From: a virus
Direction: 5' to 3' (one strand)
Virus record (IMG/VR): IMGVR_UViG_3300043449_001175
Coordinates: 35,139 to 99,138 of that record
Length of the DNA: 64,000 nucleotides
Part shown: positions 1 to 64,000 of the stretch, one piece after another
Layout: each line of letters begins with the position of its first letter
Position numbering within the stretch: the stretch's first letter is position 1
Notes under the pieces: model-generated
Told to the model about the DNA's origin: nothing
Databases searched by the model: none
Seen by the model: the letters and a program-made list of their open reading frames with translations, nothing else
Translations under genes and position numbers: made by a program

Positions 1-869
1 TATTAATTGAACAAAATTTTGCCGGAACTTTTGATGGTGCGATATCAAAGTTTAATATGTATGCAAAACCATTATCGGTTCCTGAAATTCAACACAATGC
101 AAGAATTTTAAGACCAATTTATAATTTTTTAAATCCATATTGTTTAGATTGTGGTGCAAATGTAACACCAACCCCAACACCAACAACAACAGTTACACCA
201 ACACCAACCTCAGTTACTCCAACTCCAACACCTACACCATCGGTAACACCAGGTCTTTCACCAACACCAACCCCAACACCGACAAGTACACCATCACCTT
301 ATTTTGCATATCTATTTATAGAACCTCAATCAGGTTCAACTCTTATTGGTGAATACATGTACAATTTGGGTTCAACATTCTATGGATTTACAAATAACTC
401 AGCGCCAGACAATGACAACACAAATCCTGACTTATTCAATGATGACATGAATAATTATGTGTCTTTCTCAGGATGGAGTAATGGTTCATTCCCTTCAGTG
501 AGAACTCAAACAGTTCCACAGTCTTCGGGTGGTGTTGATTCATTTGGTAATTCAATATCGGCATATAATTTCACAACACACGAAGTACCAATTAATACAG
601 TTAGTGGTAACTCTTGGTATACGTGGATTATCCCAAATGATGCGATAAATGATGGAATACAACAAAAAATTGCTTATAGTGTAAATGGTAATCCAAACGC
701 ATTGACAACATCAATTATGGACAGCTCAATTTATTCTAGTACGTTTACTTATACAGGTACTACAATTCCTGTTGGTACTTATAGAGTTTACACAACATTT
801 GCTGACTTGTCATTCTATATAAATAACAACTTTAATACCGTATATTTTAAAGGTGATACTGTAATTTAA
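1..869 (+). CDS. Tail adhesin/fibre protein, 5' truncated (LamG-like end, Thr-Pro linker, shared C-terminal domain)
   Basis: The reading frame is open from base 3, so the gene begins upstream of the window; the ATG at 57 is internal. The first 50 or so residues (FNMYAKPLSVPEIQHNARIL) look like the closing strands of a concanavalin A-like/LamG carbohydrate-binding domain. Next comes a linker of about 45 residues made almost only of Thr, Pro and Ser, then a C-terminal domain of about 180 residues ending in YRVYTTFADLSFY. That domain recurs, about 60% identical by eye, at the end of the gene at 61296-62288. Inferred role: a surface-exposed virion protein binding host glycans. Four glycosyltransferase genes follow directly. 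The adhesin role is inferred from architecture; no enzymatic motif was seen. Confidence 0.75.
   Translation, partial: LIEQNFAGTFDGAISKFNMYAKPLSVPEIQHNARILRPIYNFLNPYCLDCGANVTPTPTPTTTVTPTPTSVTPTPTPTPSVTPGLSPTPTPTPTSTPSPYFAYLFIEPQSGSTLIGEYMYNLGSTFYGFTNNSAPDNDNTNPDLFNDDMNNYVSFSGWSNGSFPSVRTQTVPQSSGGVDSFGNSISAYNFTTHEVPINTVSGNSWYTWIIPNDAINDGIQQKIAYSVNGNPNALTTSIMDSSIYSSTFTYTGTTIPVGTYRVYTTFADLSFYINNNFNTVYFKGDTVI
162..299 (+). repeat. Thr-Pro linker repeat in the first adhesin
   Basis: Low-complexity ACA/CCA codons encode alternating Thr and Pro with a few Ser and Val. The same type of linker occurs in the adhesin genes at 58700-58815 and 61549-61725. It resembles mucin-type stalks and is rich in potential O-glycosylation sites. 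Confidence 0.85.
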
Positions 870-976: not shown

Positions 977-2224
977 ATGAAAATATTTGTTCAAATTGCC
1001 TCTTATCGTGACCCACAGTTGGTTCACACAATCAAAAACATGATTGAAAATGCGAAGAAACCAAAAAATTTACGATTTGGTATTGCAAGACAATTTCATC
1101 CCAATGATAAATTTGATGACTTGTCAGAGTACGATAAAGATAAAAGATTCAAAATCATTAACATTCCATACGAAGAATCAAAAGGTGTTTGTTGGGCAAG
1201 AAACCTAACACAACAACTTTATGATAATGAAGAATATACACTTCAAATTGATTCTCACATGAGGTTTGCTCCAAATTGGGATGATGAGATGATTAAGATG
1301 ATTAAACAACTCCAAAAGAAAGGTCATGAAAAACCATTACTTACAGGTTATGTTTCGTCATTTGACCCCGACAATGACCCTCAAGGGAGAATGCAAGAGC
1401 CATGGAGAATGGCGTTTGACAGATTTATTCCCGAAGGTGCGGTATTCTTCTTACCTGAAACAATTCCAGGTTGGCAGAACTTAACAGAACCTGTCACATC
1501 TCGTTTCTATTCGGCTCACTACTGTTTCACTTTGGGACAATTCTCAAAAGAAGTACAACACAACCCTGAATACTATTTTCACGGTGAAGAAATATCAATT
1601 GCCGCTCGTGCTTATACTTGGGGTTATGATTTGTTCCACCCACATAAAGTTTTGATTTGGCACGAATATACTCGTAAAGGTAGAACAAAACAATGGGATG
1701 ACGATAAAGCTTGGGGTGAGAAAAACAAACATTCACATTTTACAAACAGAAAGTTGTTTGGTATGGACGGTGAACAACAAGAAGGACATGATGGTCCTTA
1801 TGGTTTTGGTCCCGTTAGAACATTAAGAGATTACGAAAAGTACTCTGGTTTGTTGTTTGAAAAACGTGCGGTACAACAATATACTTTGGATAAGAACTAC
1901 CCACCGAACCCATATAATTTTGAATCTGAAGAAGAGTGGAAGAAAAACTTTGCTCAAGTTTTCAAACATTGTATTGATATTGGATTCTCTCAAGTACCTG
2001 AAAAAGATTATGATTTTTGGGTGGTTGCTTTTCACGGAGAAAATGATGAAACACTTTATAGAAAAGATGCTGACATCAATGAGATTAATAGAATGTTAAA
2101 TGACCCTGATGGATATTGTAAAGTATGGAGAGAGTTCCAAACAGAACATAAACCAAAGTATTGGGTTGTTTGGCCTCACTCAGTATCAAAAGACTGGTGT
2201 GAAAGGATTACGGGGAACCTGTAA
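977..2224 (+). CDS. GT60-type protein GlcNAc-transferase (Pfam GlcNAc family)
   Basis: 415 residues matching the glycosyltransferase family whose known members are Dictyostelium Skp1 Gnt1 and trypanosome polypeptide alpha-GlcNAc transferases. Visible family motifs: an N-terminal IFVQIASYRDPQL strand; CWAR near residue 75; the metal/sugar-nucleotide site LQIDSHMRF with D92-S93-H94; and HGEEISIAARAYTWGYD with G203-E204-E205, followed by a WHEY motif. Known characterised members transfer GlcNAc from UDP-GlcNAc to hydroxyproline or threonine of proteins in the cytosol. The substrate here is inferred only: the Thr-Pro-rich tail adhesin immediately upstream is the obvious candidate. First of four consecutive GT genes; the next starts 15 bases downstream. 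Host-surface modification is an alternative role. Confidence 0.85.
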   Translation: MKIFVQIASYRDPQLVHTIKNMIENAKKPKNLRFGIARQFHPNDKFDDLSEYDKDKRFKIINIPYEESKGVCWARNLTQQLYDNEEYTLQIDSHMRFAPNWDDEMIKMIKQLQKKGHEKPLLTGYVSSFDPDNDPQGRMQEPWRMAFDRFIPEGAVFFLPETIPGWQNLTEPVTSRFYSAHYCFTLGQFSKEVQHNPEYYFHGEEISIAARAYTWGYDLFHPHKVLIWHEYTRKGRTKQWDDDKAWGEKNKHSHFTNRKLFGMDGEQQEGHDGPYGFGPVRTLRDYEKYSGLLFEKRAVQQYTLDKNYPPNPYNFESEEEWKKNFAQVFKHCIDIGFSQVPEKDYDFWVVAFHGENDETLYRKDADINEINRMLNDPDGYCKVWREFQTEHKPKYWVVWPHSVSKDWCERITGNL

Positions 2225-2239
2225 TAATAAAATTAGTTA

Positions 2240-2974
2240 ATGAATATTACTAATATCCCTAAGTTTGTCGTTAATTTAGAAAGACGACCTGACCGATTAG
2301 AACATATCCAAAAAGAAATGGATTATATGGGTTGGGAATACGAGTTATTCAAAGCCGTTGATTTAAATAATCATGGTGGTTGTACTTTATCACACACACA
2401 AATCATTAAACTTGCCAAAGAACGAGGATATGACTCGGTTATGGTGATTGAAGATGATTGTACTTTTTTACCGTATTCGAAGGATTTGATAAATAAAATT
2501 GAAACCGAATCTGATGAGTTTGAATTTGGAATTATTAATCTTGCACCAACCTTAAACCGAGTAGTCAACCGTAGTGAAGAACAACCTTTATTTTTAGATA
2601 TTACAAATTTACCGCCAAAGAAAGAACATGAAAGAGGTATATTTGCAACTAACATGATAATTTATCATAGTTCAATTTATGATAAAGTTTTGGAAATGGA
2701 AAAAAAAGAAAACTTAGGTTATTATGCAATAGATGATTACATTTATCAATTTGTTTTACCAATCAGACAAAGTTATTGTCCAATATTACCAGTTGCCCCT
2801 CAAATGAGTAGTTGGTCTGATGTATCTCAAGGACAATACAATAATTTTTATACTCAAACTTATAATTGGAATTTATATAGTCCGTGTAAAATACCTTCAG
2901 GATATTTACATGGTACATTAACAAACGAACTTAAAACAAATAAACAACATAAAGAATTTACATATGTCAGTTAA
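2240..2974 (+). CDS. GT25-family glycosyltransferase
   Basis: 244 residues with the GT25 signature (family of LPS beta-1,4-galactosyltransferases and collagen galactosyltransferases). The N-terminus VVNLERRPDRLEHI is the donor-binding strand-loop; GCTLSHTQIIKLA and the acidic VIEDDCTF are the conserved catalytic/metal region, followed by a GT25-like variable C-terminal half. It probably transfers a hexose onto a glycan or glycoprotein. It lies 15 bases after the GT60-type gene and overlaps the next gene by 11 bases, implying co-expression. The acceptor cannot be read from the sequence. Confidence 0.85.
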   Translation: MNITNIPKFVVNLERRPDRLEHIQKEMDYMGWEYELFKAVDLNNHGGCTLSHTQIIKLAKERGYDSVMVIEDDCTFLPYSKDLINKIETESDEFEFGIINLAPTLNRVVNRSEEQPLFLDITNLPPKKEHERGIFATNMIIYHSSIYDKVLEMEKKENLGYYAIDDYIYQFVLPIRQSYCPILPVAPQMSSWSDVSQGQYNNFYTQTYNWNLYSPCKIPSGYLHGTLTNELKTNKQHKEFTYVS

Positions 2975-3845
2975 ATTTATTACATCAATATATAGCGATT
3001 TGTATGGTACTGAATACGGTGGTCGAATTGGTAGAGGAGGTCATTATCGATATAGTTTATTATCGCTTTTAAAAATGACTAATGCTGATTTTTTATGTTA
3101 TACATCAGATAGAGAGTTACCTTCATTACTCACATTTTTTTATGAAACACATGGTATATCATCAGATAAACTAAAATTTCAAGTGTTTGATATTGCAAAT
3201 ACAAAATTCAAAGATTTAATTAATCAATATAAAGATGTTGAAGTAACTAAAAAATCAGATAGATGTATTGAAGTACAATATAGTAAATTCCATTGGTGGT
3301 GGAACGAAGATAAGTCTTATGATTATTATTATTGGATTGACGCTGGATTGTCACATTGCGGATTAATCCCAGTTAAATACTTGGTTGGTACTCACCCCGA
3401 ACAAAGATATTATGAATCAACTTTATTCAATAATGATTTTTTGAAGAATCTAATTGAAGATACTGGCGATAAATTCTTAATTCTTGGAAAAGAAAATGAC
3501 CGAAATTATTGGTCAGGCACATTGGACCCTAAATGGTATACTAATTGGGAAAGAGGTGTTCATATTATTGGAGGACTATTTGGTGGTCATAGAGATAATT
3601 GGGATAAAATTGTTACACTATTTGAAGATTATACTAAAAATGTTATTACTGAGGATAAAGGTTTACCCCATGAAGAAAATATAATGACATTAATGTACTA
3701 TAATCATAAAGAATTATTTGAACGTAAACATTTTGATATTTGGTGGTGTAGGGATAATGCACCTGCAGGTGTTTCAGATGAAATGTTTGAACAAAATAAA
3801 AGTTTTTTTAAAATTTTAGAAGAATTTAATAGAATATATGAGTAA
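2964..3845 (+). CDS. HtrL/YibB-like putative glycosyltransferase
   Basis: 293 residues resembling the HtrL_YibB/WlaTC family, thought to act in surface polysaccharide synthesis. Visible features are an N-terminal FITSIYSDLYGTEYGG, an aromatic core ending in YYWIDAGLSH near residue 122 (the family's acidic site) and IIGGLFGGH downstream. It overlaps the upstream GT25 gene by 11 bases and the next gene by 8, so the three are translationally linked. A related domain forms the first half of the next protein. The donor and acceptor are unknown, and the family itself is poorly characterised biochemically. Confidence 0.7.
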   Translation: MSVKFITSIYSDLYGTEYGGRIGRGGHYRYSLLSLLKMTNADFLCYTSDRELPSLLTFFYETHGISSDKLKFQVFDIANTKFKDLINQYKDVEVTKKSDRCIEVQYSKFHWWWNEDKSYDYYYWIDAGLSHCGLIPVKYLVGTHPEQRYYESTLFNNDFLKNLIEDTGDKFLILGKENDRNYWSGTLDPKWYTNWERGVHIIGGLFGGHRDNWDKIVTLFEDYTKNVITEDKGLPHEENIMTLMYYNHKELFERKHFDIWWCRDNAPAGVSDEMFEQNKSFFKILEEFNRIYE

Positions 3846-5511
3846 TATAACTTTAGTAACAGGTCTTTGGAATATTAAGAGAGATGAACTTGGTGAAGGT
3901 TGGTCTCGTTCATTCCAACATTATTTGGATAAATTTGAACAACTACTTAAGGTTGAAAATCCAATGATTATATTTGGTGATTCTGACTTGGAATCATTTG
4001 TTTTTGAAAGACGAAACAAAGATAATACAATGTTTATCTCTCGTAGTCAAGAATGGTTCAAAAACGAATTTTATGACAAAATACAAACAATCAGAACAAA
4101 TCCTGATTGGTATAATCAAGCAGGTTGGTTACCACAATCAACACAAGCAAGATTAGAAATGTACAATCCTTTGGTAATGTCAAAGGTTTTCTTATTAAAT
4201 GATGCCAAAATTATGGACCCATTTAATTCTGATATGATGTTTTGGATTGATGCTGGTTTAACAAATACTGTTCATCCAGGTTATTTTACACACGATAAAG
4301 TTTTGGAGAAATTACCTAACTATGTTAATAAATTTTCATTTGTTTGTTTCCCATATCAAGCCGAAAACGAGATTCACGGATTTAACTTTAATCAAATTAA
4401 TGGAATTGTTGGTGAAAAGGTAGAAATGGTTGCACGTGGTGGGTTCTTTGGTGGTCCAAAACACACAATAGGAGACATTAACGGGATTTATTACAATTTG
4501 TTATCATCCACATTATCTCGTGGACTTATGGGAACTGAGGAGTCAATATTCTCAATCATGTGTTACAAACACTCCGATTTAATTGATTACTTTGAAATAG
4601 AATCTAATGGTTTATTTGGTAAGTTCTTTGAAGATTTGAAAAATGAAACATTAGAAAGAAAAAACAAACAAGGTTTTACACCAATTAATGACGATTTGAA
4701 TCCTGATAACGCTGCTTTGTATGTAATTACATTTAATAGTCCAAAACAATTTGAAACATTGATTGATTCAATGACTCAATATGACAAAGATTTTTTAGAT
4801 AAACCAAAAAAGTTTTTATTGAATAACTCATCTGATTTATCAACTACCGAAAGATACTCGGAACTTTGTGAAATATATGGTTTTGAACATATCAAGAAAG
4901 ATAATTTAGGTATTTGTGGTGGTAGACAATGGGTTGCAGAACATTCTGAAGAAAATGGGTTTGATTTTCATTTTTTCTTCGAGGATGACATGTTCTTTTA
5001 CCCCCAAAAAGGAGATGTGTGTAGAAACGGATTTAATAGATACGTTTCAAATTTATATAAGAACACATTAGAAATAACAAAAAAGAATCATTTTGATTTT
5101 TTAAAGTTTAATTACAGTGAGTTTTATGGTGATAATGGTACCCAATGGTCGTGGTACAATGTTCCACAGAACTTTAGAATAGAACATTGGCCTGAAAAAC
5201 CAAATTTACCTGTTCACGGTCAAGACCCAAATGCTCCAAGAACAAAATTCAAACATGTAAGAACACACAATGGTATTCCATTCGTATCAGGTGAAATTTA
5301 TTATTGTAACTGGCCACAAGTTGTTACTCGTCATGGTAACAAGAAAATGTTTTTAGAAACAACTTGGGCACACCCGTTCGAGCAGACATGGATGAGTTTT
5401 ATTTTTCAAGAAACAATTAAGGGAAAAATCAATCCCGGACTATTACTTATGACCCCAACTGAACATGATAGGTTTGAATTTTATGATGGTTCATTAAGAA
5501 AAGAATCTTAA
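3838..5511 (+). CDS. Two-domain glycosyltransferase: HtrL/YibB-like plus GT-A-like domain
   Basis: 557 residues. Residues 1 to about 280 repeat the HtrL/YibB pattern (TLVTGLWNI, then FWIDAGL near residue 134 and GGFFGGPKHT). Residues from about 290 form a second unit starting ALYVITFNSPKQFETLIDSM, typical of the nucleotide-sugar-binding start of GT2-like GT-A folds, with FFFEDDMFF near residue 382 as the DXD-like metal site. The two domains could add two sugars in succession. The first half is related to the preceding gene, which suggests duplication. Last of the four-gene cluster. The family call for the second half is tentative. Confidence 0.7.
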   Translation: MSNITLVTGLWNIKRDELGEGWSRSFQHYLDKFEQLLKVENPMIIFGDSDLESFVFERRNKDNTMFISRSQEWFKNEFYDKIQTIRTNPDWYNQAGWLPQSTQARLEMYNPLVMSKVFLLNDAKIMDPFNSDMMFWIDAGLTNTVHPGYFTHDKVLEKLPNYVNKFSFVCFPYQAENEIHGFNFNQINGIVGEKVEMVARGGFFGGPKHTIGDINGIYYNLLSSTLSRGLMGTEESIFSIMCYKHSDLIDYFEIESNGLFGKFFEDLKNETLERKNKQGFTPINDDLNPDNAALYVITFNSPKQFETLIDSMTQYDKDFLDKPKKFLLNNSSDLSTTERYSELCEIYGFEHIKKDNLGICGGRQWVAEHSEENGFDFHFFFEDDMFFYPQKGDVCRNGFNRYVSNLYKNTLEITKKNHFDFLKFNYSEFYGDNGTQWSWYNVPQNFRIEHWPEKPNLPVHGQDPNAPRTKFKHVRTHNGIPFVSGEIYYCNWPQVVTRHGNKKMFLETTWAHPFEQTWMSFIFQETIKGKINPGLLLMTPTEHDRFEFYDGSLRKES

Positions 5512-5527: not shown

Positions 5528-6016
5528 ATGGGAAGGTTTATTATATCAGAAAATGAAAAAAAGAGGATATTGGGTTTATATCTTGTTGAATCTGAAGAAG
5601 AAATCACTTTAGTTGATGGTATTGAAAAAAGAATAGACAAAAATCCTAATCCAAAAGTACAGAGTATACTTCCTCCAGGTTTGTTTAAAAGTTATACAGT
5701 TTTATTAAACGGAGAAGAAATAATGGGTGGAAGTCCACAAACCTCAAAAAAATATACCTATGTTGGTTCTAAAGAGGGTGGTTTATTAAACGTAGTTATA
5801 CCTGACGATTCTGACAAGGCTTATGTAATGAATATTAATATTCCTGAAAACCTAAGAGGAAAGGGTATTGGTGCTAAAATATACCAAGCTGTTGCTAATA
5901 AAATTAATCGAACAGTAATTAGCTCAGGAGATAATGAAGCGTTAGGGATGATTGCGTCACAAACACCATCATCACAATCGTTTTGGAGAAAACATAAAAA
6001 TTTTGAACCCAATTGA
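5528..6016 (+). CDS. Small GNAT-like acetyltransferase-type protein
   Basis: 162 residues. The C-terminal half carries MNINIPENLRGKGIGAKIYQ, which fits GNAT motif A (R-x-x-G-x-G) for acetyl-CoA pyrophosphate binding, followed by a helix and a SFWRKHKNFEP ending like the family's last strand. The N-terminal 25 residues (FIISENEKKRILGLYLVES) are a short charged helix similar in style to the leader of the gene at 35631. The domain is shorter than typical GNATs and lacks a clear N-terminal strand pair. Substrate unknown; acetyltransferase activity is an inference from one motif. Confidence 0.5.
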   Translation: MGRFIISENEKKRILGLYLVESEEEITLVDGIEKRIDKNPNPKVQSILPPGLFKSYTVLLNGEEIMGGSPQTSKKYTYVGSKEGGLLNVVIPDDSDKAYVMNINIPENLRGKGIGAKIYQAVANKINRTVISSGDNEALGMIASQTPSSQSFWRKHKNFEPN

Positions 6017-6112: not shown

Positions 6113-6514
6113 ATGGATTTTAATATTAAAAAAAATGCGACATTACCACTTTTAAAAATGCAAGTGGTTAGAGATGGTAGAAGTGAATACCAATCTTTTA
6201 TGGATTCTTTGGGTAATGCCTCAATTTTCTTTTCTATGATAAATGAAACATCTGGTATACCAAAGATTGTTTCAAAACCCGCATATATTACTGAAGTAAT
6301 TGGTGATGACCCAAACGCATTACCCGAATATTACGTATATTTTAAATTCACCGCTCGTGATACAAATACTATTGGTCGTTATGTTGGACAATTTTTGATT
6401 AAATATAATAACGGTCTTTTGGGTGGTATTGAAGGAAATCTTATTTTACCTCTAAGAGATGAGTTATACATCAATGTCCAAGAAAGTTTCATTATAGATA
6501 GTCCTTGTTGTTGA
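6113..6514 (+). CDS. Hypothetical protein, possibly beta-sandwich virion protein
   Basis: 133 residues, not recognised with confidence. The opening FNIKKNATLPLLKMQVVRDG and the closing GQFLIKYNNG strand resemble the N-terminal beta-sandwich domain of BppU-type baseplate proteins (DUF2479), which attach receptor-binding proteins to baseplates; this is a weak pattern match. It ends in CC. It stands alone between the GNAT-like gene and the polymerase leader with its own upstream motif, so it is probably expressed late, unlike the polymerase. Confidence 0.45.
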   Translation: MDFNIKKNATLPLLKMQVVRDGRSEYQSFMDSLGNASIFFSMINETSGIPKIVSKPAYITEVIGDDPNALPEYYVYFKFTARDTNTIGRYVGQFLIKYNNGLLGGIEGNLILPLRDELYINVQESFIIDSPCC

Positions 6515-58175: not shown

Positions 58176-60914
58176 ATGGCGTTAGTAAATAAATTATTTC
58201 AAAATTGTTTCAATTATACAGGAGATACAATTTATAAAACATTTACAATTGATGATGCTAGTGGATGGACAACAACACAAAGTTACGTTATTTATAGTGG
58301 TGATGGAGCTTGTTATGTTTACTTGGGTACTACTTTGGGTAGTCCAGTATCAACATATCTATCACCTACTGGAACAAATGTTAGTGGTGCTTGTAATTCA
58401 TCAACAGGATGTCCGTCAGTTAACACCAACATGTACCCAAACAATTTGTTTTACACGTTTTCGGCGTGTTGTGATGGGTCAACATTTAGTTTTAGACGTG
58501 GTGACATTGAATTGGGTTCCGATTATGTTAATGGTACGACAATGGCTCTTAGTTATGTTGGGACTGGTGGTACTTTTAATGGTTGTGCAACTGTAATCAC
58601 AGGATATACCGGTTCAACAATATATACCGACAATAATTGTACTTTTAGTTATTTATCAACATTCTCGGATTGTTCTGATTGTGAAATATATTCTCCTTGC
58701 CCAACACCAACTACAACACCAACACCAACTACAACACCAACACCAACTATAACTCCAACACCAACTATAACTCCAACACAAATACCGCCAAGTCCAACAC
58801 CAACCTCAACACCATTTAATAATGGTAATACTTTTGCATATACGATAACAGTAACGGGCGCTTGTGAGACTGGAATTGGTGCGGCATTACTCACCGCAAG
58901 TGGTGGTACTCCACCATATACGTTTGATTGGTACAATCCTAATTTAGGTACTGGACCGTATAAATCAAACTTATCTGCCGGTACATATTTTGTTAGAGCT
59001 AATGATTCAACAGCACCAACAAATAATGAATTTTTTATTAATGTTGTTATTGGTTCTGGTTTGACAATAGGATTTCAAAGTGAAATTGCAACAACATGTG
59101 GATTAAATAATGGTTCATTAACAGTAACTGCAGAATCAAGTTGTAATGTAATTAATTATTATTTATATTCGGCTTATGGATTTGTTGATTCTCAAACAAA
59201 CTCAACAAATATTGCGACATTTGATAATTTATCTGCGGGTACTTATTCAGTAACTGCGATTGATTGTGGTGGTTGTTCAGGAACTTCAGAAACATGTATT
59301 ATATATTCATCAAACACTCTTGATTATGGATTTTATATTGTAAATGATACTGAATGTGCTAGTCCGACAGGAAAGGTATACGTTACTGGTGTTACAGGTA
59401 ACTCACCATTTACTTATGAGTGGTCTAATGGTGTAACAGGTGATACTATTACAGGATTAACAGCTGGTGGTTATGGAGTTACAGTAACATCATCGGATGG
59501 TTGTGTTTTATCTAAAGTTGCCACGGTTGATTTTGTTCCAAGTATTGGGTTAGGTTCATGGACTGCGGTTACACCATCTTGTTTTGTTGCTGATGGTTCA
59601 TTAACATTAACAATAACGGGAGGAACAGGTCCTTATTATTATTCAGGTTCAAATGGTACCGTAGCAATAACATATGCGACTTCATATGTATTTTCAGGTT
59701 TATCTTCAGGACCATTCTCTGTTGATATTACCGATGCTGCTTTATGTAAAGCAACATTCTCAACCGTATTACAAACGCCAAACACATTTAATAGTTTAGA
59801 TGTAACAACAACAAATTCTAATTGTAGTAGTAATGATGGAAAGATATCAATCACTTTGGATGGTGGACAAATACCGTACACATATACTTTAGTTTATCCT
59901 GATTCATCTGTTGTTAATGCGGTTTCAAATTCAACCGCATATGATTTTGTTAATCTTGAAAGTGGAACTTACACTGTATATGTTTCTGATAATACAAGTT
60001 GTGTTTACCAAGAAGAAACAACAATTATCGCTGAAAATTTATATACTGTAACAACAACAAGTACGGGTTCAACATGTAATTTGTCTAATGGTAGTGTTAC
60101 ATTGGTATTATCAACAGGTGGAACCGCACCATATACATATCAATTAAGTACCGGACAATCATTAAATACTAGTTTTAGTGCTGCTACATTTGGGGGATTA
60201 TCAACAGGAACTTATGTTTATAGTGTAACGGATGCTACAGGATGTGTCCAAACAGGAAGTGTTAGTGTGTCATTTGGTACACCATTACAATACTCTTTAT
60301 ACCCAACAGGATGTGGTACGGGTTCAGGTGGAACAATTACTGCTTTAATTAGTTCAGGTACACCACCATTTACGTTTACTTGGTCTGATAATATTAGTGG
60401 TAATCCTCAAAACATTGTCGTAACTGGTCTTACGGGTGGAACATATAGTTTAACAATTGTGGATGCTTCAGGATGTACTCAAACAAGAAATACGGTTATT
60501 AGTTGTACGGCAATTGAATCTACATATCAAATTTATACGATGTGTGAGAGAGAATTTGAATATACGTCAGGTACTGAAAGAGGAATTCTTCAAATGTTAA
60601 ATGAAGGTTATAATGATATTATTTCTGGTCACACAAATTGTTTATTAAGTGCTGCGACATTTGTTGCTCAAGTTGAGGTTAGTGGTACGACATATACCGA
60701 TTCATTTTACACTGGTACCACACTATTAGACATCCCAACAAATCAACAATGGTATGATGCTGTTGAAACATTATTATTATCAATACCCGGTGTTAGTAGT
60801 GTTACAATTGATACTACATCAAGTGTTGTAACAATAGCAACAGAAGGTGAATTAGCAAACCAACAAATAATAATTGACCTGATAATTCAATATGACATTA
60901 ATTGTGTGAGTTAA
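58176..60914 (+). CDS. Tail adhesin with Thr-Pro linker and SprB-type repeats
   Basis: 912 residues. Residues 1-170 form a Cys-rich domain (about 12 Cys). A Thr-Pro linker follows (about 175-213). Residues 225-790 hold about seven repeats of some 80 residues with the SprB pattern: a leading C-x-x-x-x-G, then GGTPPYTFDWYN-like, LSAGTY and V-x-D-x-x-G-C. SprB is a gliding adhesin of flavobacteria, where these repeats bind surfaces. The C-terminal 110 residues resemble the end of the preceding protein (IPTNQQWYDAVETLLLSI). Inferred role: host recognition. No membrane anchor is present. Confidence 0.78.
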   Translation: MALVNKLFQNCFNYTGDTIYKTFTIDDASGWTTTQSYVIYSGDGACYVYLGTTLGSPVSTYLSPTGTNVSGACNSSTGCPSVNTNMYPNNLFYTFSACCDGSTFSFRRGDIELGSDYVNGTTMALSYVGTGGTFNGCATVITGYTGSTIYTDNNCTFSYLSTFSDCSDCEIYSPCPTPTTTPTPTTTPTPTITPTPTITPTQIPPSPTPTSTPFNNGNTFAYTITVTGACETGIGAALLTASGGTPPYTFDWYNPNLGTGPYKSNLSAGTYFVRANDSTAPTNNEFFINVVIGSGLTIGFQSEIATTCGLNNGSLTVTAESSCNVINYYLYSAYGFVDSQTNSTNIATFDNLSAGTYSVTAIDCGGCSGTSETCIIYSSNTLDYGFYIVNDTECASPTGKVYVTGVTGNSPFTYEWSNGVTGDTITGLTAGGYGVTVTSSDGCVLSKVATVDFVPSIGLGSWTAVTPSCFVADGSLTLTITGGTGPYYYSGSNGTVAITYATSYVFSGLSSGPFSVDITDAALCKATFSTVLQTPNTFNSLDVTTTNSNCSSNDGKISITLDGGQIPYTYTLVYPDSSVVNAVSNSTAYDFVNLESGTYTVYVSDNTSCVYQEETTIIAENLYTVTTTSTGSTCNLSNGSVTLVLSTGGTAPYTYQLSTGQSLNTSFSAATFGGLSTGTYVYSVTDATGCVQTGSVSVSFGTPLQYSLYPTGCGTGSGGTITALISSGTPPFTFTWSDNISGNPQNIVVTGLTGGTYSLTIVDASGCTQTRNTVISCTAIESTYQIYTMCEREFEYTSGTERGILQMLNEGYNDIISGHTNCLLSAATFVAQVEVSGTTYTDSFYTGTTLLDIPTNQQWYDAVETLLLSIPGVSSVTIDTTSSVVTIATEGELANQQIIIDLIIQYDINCVS
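58700..58815 (+). repeat. Thr-Pro linker repeat in the SprB-type adhesin
   Basis: ACACCAACACCAACT-type codon repeats encode TPTPTTTPTP and TPTPTITP units; several 15-18 bp blocks are identical, suggesting slippage. Confidence 0.85.
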
Positions 60915-61295: not shown

Positions 61296-62288
61296 ATGGC
61301 AGAAATTTATGATATTATTGTGGTTAATGAAGCGAGCGGTTGTCAAAACGCTGTAACCAATCAATATACCATTACAGGTTGTAATCAAACAGTCCTTGTT
61401 AAATTTGACGGGACAAACAATGCTGTTGGACCATTTGACATCTATACGGGTAGTACTGGAACAACGGCTGTATATACAGGTGTTACAAGAACTGAAATGA
61501 TATATGGTGTTGTATTAACACTTACAGACCCATCAGCATTTTGTGGTACACCAACACCTACACCTACTCCAACAATAACACCATCTTCGGTAACACCAAC
61601 ACCTACACCAACATCAACAGTTACACCCACACCATCGGTTACTATTGGTATTACACCAACACCTACATCTACAACAACACCAACACCGACACCTTCAATC
61701 ACACCATCAAGCACACCGTCAGTTGGAACTGCTTATCTATTTATTGAACCTCAATCTGGTTCAACCAACATTGGTCAATATATGTTTGATGGTGGATATA
61801 ATTTCTATGGGTTTACAAACTTATCGGGACCTGATACCTCGTCACAAGTCCTCTTTAGTAATGATATGAATGGATACGTATCATTTACAGGTTGGACTGG
61901 TGGTGTTTTCCCAACAGTTAGGACACAATCGGTCCCACAAGTAAGTGGTGGTGTTGATGCTTACGGTAATAGTATTGTTGCTTACAATTTTACAACACAT
62001 GAGGTACCAGTGAATACAGTTTCAAATCAAGCTTGGTACACTTGGATTATTCCAACAGGTGCAACTAATAACTTAATACAATATCAAATTGATGTTGATT
62101 CTTTTGGTAATCCAAATTCTATGACAACATTAACTATGGATTCAACAATATACACAAAAACATTTAATTACACTGGTTCAACAATTCCTACAGGCGTTTA
62201 TAGAGTTTATACAACATTTGCAGATTTATCGTTTTATTTAGATAATGGTGGAAACACAATTTATTTCAGAGGTAATTCAGTAATATAA
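61296..62288 (+). CDS. Tail adhesin/fibre protein with Thr-Pro linker and shared C-terminal domain
   Basis: 330 residues. N-terminal domain to residue 84 (IVVNEASGCQNAVTNQYTIT, DPSAFCG) may attach to the virion; a Thr-Pro-Ser linker spans about 85-145; the C-terminal domain from YLFIEPQSGSTNIG to YFRGNSVI is the paralogue of the one in the truncated gene at 1-869. NFTTHEVPVNTV, AWYTWIIP and YRVYTTFADLSFY are nearly identical in both. The domain itself is not recognised; beta-rich, likely receptor-binding or trimerising. Two copies behind different N-termini suggest a modular tip. Confidence 0.72.
   Translation: MAEIYDIIVVNEASGCQNAVTNQYTITGCNQTVLVKFDGTNNAVGPFDIYTGSTGTTAVYTGVTRTEMIYGVVLTLTDPSAFCGTPTPTPTPTITPSSVTPTPTPTSTVTPTPSVTIGITPTPTSTTTPTPTPSITPSSTPSVGTAYLFIEPQSGSTNIGQYMFDGGYNFYGFTNLSGPDTSSQVLFSNDMNGYVSFTGWTGGVFPTVRTQSVPQVSGGVDAYGNSIVAYNFTTHEVPVNTVSNQAWYTWIIPTGATNNLIQYQIDVDSFGNPNSMTTLTMDSTIYTKTFNYTGSTIPTGVYRVYTTFADLSFYLDNGGNTIYFRGNSVI
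61549..61725 (+). repeat. Thr-Pro-Ser linker repeat in the second adhesin
   Basis: Repeats of ACACCAACACCTACA type encode TPTPTPTITP and TPTPSVT units, the longest of the three linkers in the window. Confidence 0.85.
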
Positions 62289-62311: not shown

Positions 62312-64000
62312 ATGAGCAATTTAGACTATACTAATCCAATAACATCTAATCAATTATCTTCACAACAATCGGTTGTAAAAAATTCGGTTTTTGGTGTTAC
62401 TTTTTCAGTTTTAAATTCAGGTGGGTACATGGAAGTGTACAATTTGTCTGATTTACAATTTGTGTACACTGGTGGTACAGGTCTAATTACAGGGTCAACA
62501 ATTCCAATTCAATTTAACAAAGGTATTAATAATACGTTTAGTCCTGATGTATTAACTTTAAGTAATGATTTAATTACTTCAGGAAGAAGAAGATTGGGAA
62601 TGCTTGCTTATGTTCAAGAAACAGGTTTAATATACCAATTTACAGTACCAAACTACGATTATTTATGGTCTGCAGTTACTGCACAAACAGGAACATCAGC
62701 CGTTACTTATACCGATTACTCAACATTAGTTAATAATCGTTCACAAGCAGGTCAAGATTTTATTAATGTTTGGACAGCATCAACAATTGATGGTTATAAC
62801 GCTCCTTGGAGTGGTGCAACATGGAGAGTTTTACCAGGTTCATATCCAGCCATTACAGGAGGAACATATAACTCAGGAACAACTACATTAGAATTATTTA
62901 ATTCAACAGGTGGAACAATATCTATAAGTGGATTTACATCAGGAGGTGGGGGTAGTCCTTTAACTGTTGACGGCATTTCGAATGTCACTAACATTACATT
63001 TAGCGGTGCTTCAGTTGTTGATGATGGTGGTGGTGCAATTACGGTGGTTATTAGTGGTGGTACGGGAACTTCAGGTACTAGTGGTACATCAGGAACATCA
63101 GGTTCAAGTGGTACATCAGGTGAATCAGGAACTAGCGGTACTTCAGGAACATCAGGTGAATCAGGAACTAGCGGTACTTCAGGTGAGTCAGGAACTAGCG
63201 GTACATCAGGTGAGTCAGGAACTAGTGGTACATCAGGTGAGTCAGGAACAAGTGGAACATCAGGAACTTCAGGTGAGTCAGGAACTAGTGGTACTTCAGG
63301 AACTTCAGGTGAATCAGGAACTAGCGGTACTTCAGGAACATCAGGTGAGTCAGGAACTAGTGGTACTTCAGGTACATCAGGTGAATCAGGAACTAGCGGT
63401 ACTTCAGGAACCAACGGTACTTCAGGAACATCAGGTGAATCAGGAACTAGTGGTACATCAGGTGAATCAGGAACTAGCGGTACATCAGGAACTAGTGGTA
63501 CATCAGGTGAATCAGGAACTAGCGGTACATCAGGAACTAGTGGTACATCAGGTGAATCAGGAACTAGCGGTACTTCAGGAACATCAGGTGAATCAGGAAC
63601 TAGCGGTACATCAGGAACTAGCGGTACTTCAGGAACATCAGGTGAATCAGGAACTAGCGGTACATCAGGAACATCAGGTGAATCAGGAACTAGCGGTACA
63701 TCAGGAACTAGCGGTACTTCAGGAACATCAGGTGAATCAGGAACTAGTGGTACATCAGGTGAATCAGGAACTAGCGGTACATCAGGAACTAGTGGTACAT
63801 CAGGTGAATCAGGAACTAGCGGTACTTCAGGAACTAGTGGTACATCAGGTGAATCAGGAACTAGCGGTACTTCAGGAACTAGCGGTACATCAGGAACATC
63901 AGGTTCAAGTGGTTCTTCAGGATTGAGTGGTGTAGATGGAACATCAGGTTCAAGTGGCACATCAGGTGAATCAGGAACTAGCGGTACTTCAGGAACATCA
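62312..64000 (+). CDS. Tail fibre with collagen-like Gly-Thr-Ser repeat, 3' truncated
   Basis: Open from the ATG at 62312 through the window end (at least 563 residues). Residues 1-250 form an N-terminal region: [40 protein letters not shown] (a pattern common near the base of phage fibre proteins) and [12 protein letters not shown]. From about residue 251 the protein is an uninterrupted series of Gly-x-Ser triplets, GTS with GES every third or fourth unit. Glycine at every third place is the collagen rule, though proline is absent. Collagen-like stalks in phage fibres form trimeric rods. The distal tip lies outside the window. Confidence 0.8.
63062..64000 (+). repeat. 9-bp-phased repeat encoding Gly-Thr-Ser / Gly-Glu-Ser triplets
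   Basis: Units such as GGTACATCA, GGAACTAGC and GGTGAATCA alternate for over 900 bases and continue past the end. Synonymous variation (ACTAGC or ACTAGT, ACATCA or ACTTCA) is scattered, so units have diverged at silent sites while the peptide is kept, apart from rare changes such as GTN near 63411. Confidence 0.95.

Follow-up and report, generated by a model that had tools for sequence, protein, structure and literature searches.

Few cases of phage virion glycosylation are known. Mycobacteriophages encode enzymes that attach glycans to virion proteins, thereby shielding the particle (Freeman et al. 2023, cited in PMC12619734), and virions of the jumbo phage XacN1 contain at least two glycoproteins, as determined by proteomics, which its authors suggested are made by ORF328 and ORF334 (PMC5852040). 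Here we describe a cassette of four glycosyltransferase-type genes, the first of them a homologue of XacN1 ORF334, at positions 977-5511 of a 64,000-nucleotide stretch of viral DNA ("the window"), which corresponds to bases 35,139-99,138 of the 99,138-base virus record IMGVR_UViG_3300043449_001175. Judging from the sequence and its context, the cassette is likely to be part of a phage-encoded, cytosolic, serotype-like O-glycosylation system that acts on threonine- and proline-rich (Thr-Pro) linkers of virion proteins. An earlier note on this stretch had proposed virion O-glycosylation as a phage system without a described counterpart; the idea is not wholly without precedent, since the XacN1 authors had already put forward two annotated glycosyltransferases, including the GT60 homologue ORF334 (PMC5852040). 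What is added here is a conserved initiator and a hypervariable decorating cassette.

The mycobacteriophage system differs from the present one in that its glycans are located at the C-termini of the capsid and tail tube subunits, and the available part of PMC12619734 mentions neither a GT60/HtrL cassette nor Thr-Pro linkers in connection with it. XacN1 and the Stenotrophomonas phages RAS14 and CM1 resemble it more closely in gene content. Like the window, they have a short cassette (ORF334-ORF330 in XacN1) with a GT60 gene (44-47% identity) at one end and a two-domain HtrL "bookend" (41%) at the other, together with Thr-Pro-rich proteins. In XacN1, the GT60 homologue ORF334 (47% identical) is followed by a carbamoyltransferase, HtrL1 and the HtrL bookend, and at least 13 Thr-Pro-rich proteins are encoded, with ORF350, ORF372, ORF384 and ORF232-237 among the Thr-Pro-rich ones, even though the phage is described as lacking tail fibres. 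The three phages differ from the window phage in their middle genes, which are a carbamoyltransferase and HtrL1, with one more in XacN1, in belonging to an unrelated host group, and in that GT60 does not directly follow a Thr-Pro protein.

Polypeptide N-acetylgalactosamine (GalNAc) transferases of family GT27 are the initiators of animal mucin glycans and act on Thr/Ser in Pro-rich mucin domains. The eukaryotic GT60 enzymes, Skp1 Gnt1 of Dictyostelium and Toxoplasma and TcOGNT1/2 of Trypanosoma cruzi, share the PF11397 domain with the window protein and are likewise of the retaining GT-A type with DxH in place of DxD (PMC7185993), a replacement that is common to the GT27 and GT60 families (PMC7185993). 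The T. cruzi GT60 forms N-acetylglucosamine (GlcNAc)-alpha-O-Thr on mucins, which is then extended with galactose and galactofuranose (PMC9472816); the likeness to the system proposed here lies in the acceptor threonine within mucin-like proteins and in the addition of further sugars, including galactofuranose (PMC9472816). In contrast to the eukaryotic enzymes, the GT60 described here is phage-encoded, cytosolic and part of an operon with exchangeable extension genes, and its donor and acceptor are putative.

The virus record probably represents part of a larger T4-like myovirus. T4-like virion genes recognised in it include a gp23-like major head protein, the tail sheath, the tail tube and a baseplate wedge. 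Contigs related to it are up to 295 kb long. Searches among named phages gave full-length relatives of two of the glycosyltransferases and only distant ones of the DNA polymerase. The moraphages, an aquatic Bacteroidota jumbo phage lineage, have four core glycosyltransferase orthogroups (PMC12619734). The four open reading frames (ORFs) of the cassette, at 977-2224, 2240-2974, 2964-3845 and 3838-5511, are open and co-directional, with a 15-base gap after GT60 followed by two short overlaps, just as the earlier note had described. The cassette consists of the following features:

977-2224, plus strand: GT60-type (PF11397) glycosyltransferase of 415 residues, the 5' bookend and proposed polypeptide O-glycosylation initiator (Pfam, DxH motif and AlphaFold2 (AF2) fold).
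2240-2974, plus strand: GT25-family glycosyltransferase (PF01755), part of the exchangeable middle.
2964-3845, plus strand: HtrL1, an HtrL/YibB-like glycosyltransferase of the exchangeable middle (profile-profile comparison; homologues in XacN1 and RAS14).
2218-3824, plus strand: interval swapped for unrelated DNA in contig L078 (blastn of the window against L078; Pfam/NCBIfam matches of the L078 genes).
3838-5511, plus strand: two-domain HtrL/YibB plus GT-A (TAGT/GT2-like) protein, the 3' bookend (PF09612; full-length homologues in XacN1, CM1 and RAS14 and beside bacterial GT60 genes).

The identity of the first enzyme is clear. The PF11397 GlcNAc profile matches it with E=1.1e-67 (229 bits against a cut-off of 21) over positions 96-350 and an additional N-terminal piece. 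Its DxH motif is D92-S93-H94, of which D92 and H94 are invariant across 24 phage and bacterial sequences. Sequence searches of solved structures with the GT60 and bookend profiles returned nothing meaningful, and fold comparison alone was of help. The AF2 model of GT60 is confident (pLDDT 92, pTM 0.88), and the top 36 fold matches in the PDB are nearly all polypeptide GalNAc-transferases, such as GalNAc-T2, T4, T10 and T12, the best with E of about 6e-11 and a probability of 1.0. At about 12% sequence identity, the protein shares the fold and DxH motif with GT27 but is not a member of that family. GT60 is also the most conserved of four genes compared among diverged relatives, with a median identity of 84% versus 73% for the adjacent DNA polymerase, and exceeds the polymerase in 122 of 132 pairs, although the pairs are not independent.

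The second gene product matches PF01755 (E=2e-13, 51 bits against a cut-off of 24), so that the profile searches bear out both the GT60 and the GT25 assignments of the earlier note. The note's two HtrL/YibB-like genes fared differently. Residues 3-251 of the fourth protein match HtrL_YibB (PF09612, E=7e-18, 65.6 bits against a cut-off of 24.1); its NCBIfam TIGR02192 match (E=2.5e-21) reaches 76.6 bits, well under the equivalog cut-off of 264.9, making it a YibB relative rather than YibB itself. The third protein, in contrast, gave no Pfam match at E<=1; it is a distant HtrL relative by profile-profile comparison of its family with the HtrL domain of the fourth protein (probability 97.9), and it aligns with XacN1 ORF332 and RAS14 WAX21639.

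Comparison with other loci separates the fixed parts of the cassette from the variable ones. Both GT60 and the two-domain HtrL gene were found in 69 of the 80 related viral loci fetched, and between them lie 47 gene families in 22 layouts. The GT25 family is present in 31 of the 69. Representatives of the middle genes include other glycosyltransferases (PLOD-type, GT10, GT2 and GT1/4), decorating enzymes (three sulfotransferase families, carbamoyltransferase, FkbM and other methyltransferases, and polysaccharide pyruvyl transferase), UDP-galactopyranose mutase and a HAD/nucleotidyl-transferase fusion. The four-gene make-up originally taken to be the system is thus correct for GT60 and the two-domain HtrL protein, which are constant, whereas GT25 and the first HtrL gene are one of many middle sets; the idea of GT25 and HtrL as constant partners was rejected on these grounds. 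Contig L078 illustrates the exchange: it is 96% identical to the window through the end of GT60 and 98% identical from the start of the HtrL bookend (blastn), while window positions 2218-3824 are replaced by an unrelated 2.4-kb set of GT2, GT-D and pyruvyltransferase genes, a pattern expected if cassettes are exchanged through recombination within the two constant genes.

The proposed and possible acceptors lie just before the cassette and at the far end of the window, and a small protein of interest is encoded after the cassette:

3-869, plus strand: 3' part of a 942-residue putative tail adhesin with a 64-residue Thr-Pro linker and a 187-residue C-terminal module; proposed acceptor (linker scan).
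58176-60914, plus strand: 912-residue SprB-repeat fibre-like protein (PF13573, E=6e-26) with a 60-residue Thr-Pro linker at 58,656; proposed acceptor.
61296-62288, plus strand: 330-residue protein with an 80-residue Thr-Pro linker at 61,512, sharing its C-terminal module with the protein before GT60; proposed acceptor.
62312-64000, plus strand: Gly-Thr-Ser repeat fibre, cut by the window end; possible acceptor (homologues near GT60 in L050-L060).
6113-6514, plus strand: orf133, a small protein that in relatives runs on into Thr-Pro linkers (L050/L056/L059, L046, L636, L641).

The gene before GT60 starts outside the window (G000 33,179; L084:15179), and its T/P/S-rich linker occupies residues 47-110 of the translated 3-869 frame. 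The earlier note called its product an adhesin; the linker is certainly there, but Pfam and PHROG searches of the 942-residue protein gave no match, and its putative role as an adhesin is suggested by its position and architecture. Its C-terminal module and that of the 61296-62288 protein share 66% identity. The two further linkers and the Gly-Thr-Ser fibre predicted for 58-64 kb were found as described. Relatives of orf133 in L050, L056 and L059 are 411-residue forms with Thr-Pro stretches of about 62 residues, and the L046 form has 709 residues, so that the cassette can have Thr-Pro proteins on either side. The fourth and longest stretch, of 311 residues, lies outside the window in a TPTETPTNTP repeat protein (L083:5261-6664) whose gene is directly downstream of the major capsid gene and which is a possible head decoration protein. 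Together with XacN1, this long protein beside the capsid gene means that the linkers were rightly singled out as targets, but that the targets may extend beyond tail fibres. The linkers are not a matter of chance composition, since shuffling the pooled proteome 20 times yielded one comparable stretch.

If GT60 modifies Thr-Pro linkers, the two should occur together across phages, and this is indeed the case. A T/P/S-rich stretch was found near GT60 in 73 of the 80 phage loci, which are partly redundant; it is often in the gene just upstream and is up to 816 residues long. In many loci, GT60 directly follows a Thr-Pro protein and lies between virion-type genes. Among the matches listed for contigs selected solely for codons of TPTPTPTPT, 12 of 40 had GT60, compared with 0 of 50 for contigs selected for PAPAPAPAP or TGTGTGTGT (PA/TG repeats; Fisher p=2e-5). 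When limited to contigs of 36-75 kb, the difference is 4 of 23 versus 0 of 44 (p=0.01). Of the complete genomes compared within the RaK2-like group, outer branches included, those of XacN1, RAS14 and CM1 have GT60 together with 29, 19 and 19 TPTPTP sites, respectively, while those of RaK2, Atu_ph07, SCTP-2, CBB and slurp01 have neither (3 of 3 versus 0 of 5); RAS14 and CM1 were grouped with XacN1 on shared genes, not on a tree. Close relatives without GT60 made a poor within-lineage control, as apparent absences in loci anchored on the polymerase were mostly long cassettes or short contigs. The phage members occupy at least three separate positions in the GT60 tree, and the coupling is thus not a single inheritance.

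The same association bears on the possibility that the cassette is a mobile accessory element hitch-hiking beside tail genes, with no tight link to Thr-Pro linkers and with both simply typical of large aquatic phages. Such phages do hold many glycosyltransferases (PMC12619734), and Thr-Pro-rich contigs without GT60 exist. Nevertheless, the coupling within the RaK2-like clade, its persistence in the diverged phages L634 and L640, where GT60 sits elsewhere in the genome, inside the tail-fibre cluster beside a Thr-Pro protein and without an HtrL bookend, the stronger constraint on GT60 than on DNA polymerase, and a coupling in bacteria that decays with distance make hitch-hiking very improbable.

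In bacterial chromosomes, Thr-Pro stretches cluster significantly within 2 kb of GT60 (16 of 217 slots versus 3 of 333, by a distance-based test excluding Burkholderiaceae, where a fimbrial adhesin takes their place; the threshold and the exclusion were set after the data had been seen, and the test is thus partly post hoc). An earlier ORF-based test of adjacency was weak (10 of 225 versus 11 of 524, p=0.09). The contig control and the RaK2-like comparison are therefore the cleaner evidence for coupling than the bacterial distance test. In one Saprospiraceae locus, a Thr-Pro protein with a type IX secretion system sorting domain adjoins GT60. A fimbrial protein gene lies 39-124 bp upstream of GT60 in 18 Burkholderiaceae and Neisseriaceae loci, and one of the proteins has an MrkD-like receptor-binding domain. 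This direct succession of fimbrial adhesin gene and GT60 in Burkholderiaceae (L103-L140) and Neisseriaceae (L102) suggests that these adhesins may be glycosylated. In the same loci, genes some 4-5 kb downstream also encode long Thr-Pro- or PE-rich tails; one of these genes resembles VgrG.

A locus in Jiulongibacter sediminis (L094, 5945-13148) strikingly resembles the phage cassette, with two GT60 genes, a Thr-Pro-linker protein, an FkbM-HtrL fusion and a carbamoyltransferase-like gene in a position matching that of XacN1; carbamoyltransferases are found in several phage cassettes too. A PF11397 search of about 400 genomes across the phylum of Jiulongibacter gave a strong match only in this already known locus, and in another phylum 3 of 289 genomes had a match.

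Several observations weigh against virion O-glycosylation of Thr-Pro linkers. Seven of the 80 phage GT60 loci lack a nearby Thr-Pro stretch, though some of these loci are incomplete. In several Thr-Pro-rich viral contigs, 47-181 kb in length, GT60 and the HtrL bookend are both missing; such contigs may be incomplete, but they imply that Thr-Pro linkers do not require a GT60 enzyme. The fimbrial adhesin beside the Burkholderiaceae GT60 generally has no Thr-Pro linker, so GT60 enzymes at large may have acceptors other than Thr-Pro. The thresholds for Thr-Pro stretches were chosen during the analysis, and the contig counts from the collection scans are not random samples. Finally, there is a weak resemblance to DNA-hypermodifying glucosyltransferases in the C-terminal domain of the 3' bookend. 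Neither GT60 nor the bookend was detected in the very Thr-Pro-rich contigs L295, L281, L326, L331 and L268, which may use another initiator or may be incomplete.

The resemblance of the bookend raises the question of DNA hypermodification, in which the glycosyltransferases would glycosylate modified phage bases and thereby evade restriction. The second domain of the fourth protein, on which the earlier note is silent, gives weak matches to TAGT/PF20691 (E=1e-4, 22.4 bits, under the cut-off of 27.5) and to phrog_842, a beta-glucosyl-hydroxymethylcytosine-alpha-glucosyltransferase (E=3e-5), and is thus faintly similar to the T4/T6-type and TET-associated DNA glucosyltransferases. Glycosylation of phage DNA is a familiar phenomenon and has been mentioned for the core glycosyltransferases of a similar aquatic lineage (PMC12619734). 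However, GT60 is a polypeptide-type family; the two-domain bookend also sits beside GT60 in bacterial chromosomes, where its C-terminal domain fits GT2 better than TAGT; the sulfo- and pyruvyltransferases and UDP-galactopyranose mutase of the cassettes are surface-glycan enzymes; and the coupling to Thr-Pro linkers would be left unexplained. In addition, no base-hydroxylating pathway was found. There was no Tet/JBP match in nine large relatives, a weak negative as control genomes gave no match either; members of the thymidylate-synthase family did not turn up in the relatives of 295 kb and 242 kb, and in four other relatives the copies that could be read retain the synthase-type Asn. This search for hydroxymethyl-pyrimidine enzymes covered relatives, the record itself being a 99-kb fragment, and leaves room for hydroxymethylases of the deoxyuridine monophosphate type. 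Taken together, we think DNA hypermodification quite unlikely. Fold matches of the bookend AF2 model to LH3 and COLGALT1 were not used as evidence, as the model has low overall confidence (pTM 0.52).

Another alternative is that the cassette remodels the host surface, altering the O-antigen or capsule to block superinfection. Hypervariable glycosyltransferase islands beside tail-fibre genes, as in pelagimyophages and cyanophages, have been read in this way, as modification of host lipopolysaccharide (available part of PMC7029224; PMC7824862). They resemble the present locus in variability and position, but GT8 is their most represented family and GT60 goes unmentioned in the available part of PMC7029224. 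The middle genes here do resemble O-antigen enzymes, and a second large sugar operon is present upstream in the same genome. Yet a simple hydropathy test, which flagged 2 of 41 window ORFs, detected a membrane segment in 0 of 258 cassette proteins, so that a flippase, polymerase, ligase or phosphoglycosyl transferase, as a lipid-carrier locus would have, is not expected among them. Lipid-carrier assembly within the cassette is therefore unlikely, the simplest reading being that virion proteins are modified directly in the cytosol. GT60, moreover, is polypeptide-type and more conserved than the adjacent DNA polymerase, and host-surface remodelling does not account for the Thr-Pro coupling. We regard it as unlikely.

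Virion O-glycosylation, by comparison, gains support from the co-occurrence of GT60 with Thr-Pro linkers, a check that the earlier note had proposed and that came with matched negatives, and from adjacency in bacteria, the GT27-like fold, the soluble, lipid-carrier-free cassette and the glycoproteins of XacN1. The acceptor, donor sugar, order of steps and benefit that we infer are as follows. GT60 would place the first sugar, probably alpha-GlcNAc or another N-acetylhexosamine, on threonines in the Thr-Pro linkers of freshly synthesised virion proteins. Enzymes of the middle genes, which are GT25 and HtrL1 in the window and many alternatives in relatives, would extend and decorate it, and the constant two-domain HtrL protein would append more sugars or cap the chain. 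As phages that are otherwise nearly identical exchange their middle genes, the glycan on the particle surface may differ from phage to phage, like a serotype. The likely benefit would be stiff, protease-resistant linkers, a virion masked so that bacteria do not recognise it or so that it does not adhere to the wrong surface, or tuned adsorption.

Other features of the genome deserve mention. Downstream of the cassette, at 5528-6016, is a gene for a 162-residue protein with only sub-threshold matches to GNAT acetyltransferases. It is missing from contig L001, which is otherwise 99% identical, and thus looks like a recent insertion or loss. The second sugar operon lies outside the window on the minus strand (G000 14.8-30.5 kb; L083:14827 to L084:12503) and contains several GT2 genes, GT11, a UDP-sugar dehydrogenase, a DegT aminotransferase fragment, WbqC, a hexapeptide acyltransferase, methyltransferases and a PhyH dioxygenase. 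It may be a source of unusual sugars for the cassette.

The sequence context thus puts a name to the initiator, predicts an acceptor motif and provides a set of swappable decorating enzymes, shared among numerous aquatic phages, three jumbo phages in culture and the adhesin loci of bacteria. On balance, we lean slightly towards a widespread mucin-type O-glycosylation of bacteria and phages, in which GT60 starts glycans on Thr-Pro-rich adhesin linkers and, in phages, a recombination-driven cassette rewrites the sugar coat of the virion. As XacN1, RAS14 and CM1 are cultured, the proposal can be tested at once. If true, it would explain many of the unexplained glycosyltransferases of large phages and predict virion glycan serotypes, while bacterial GT60 genes would gain a function and the Thr-Pro linkers of phage fibres would become a testable target of glycosylation.

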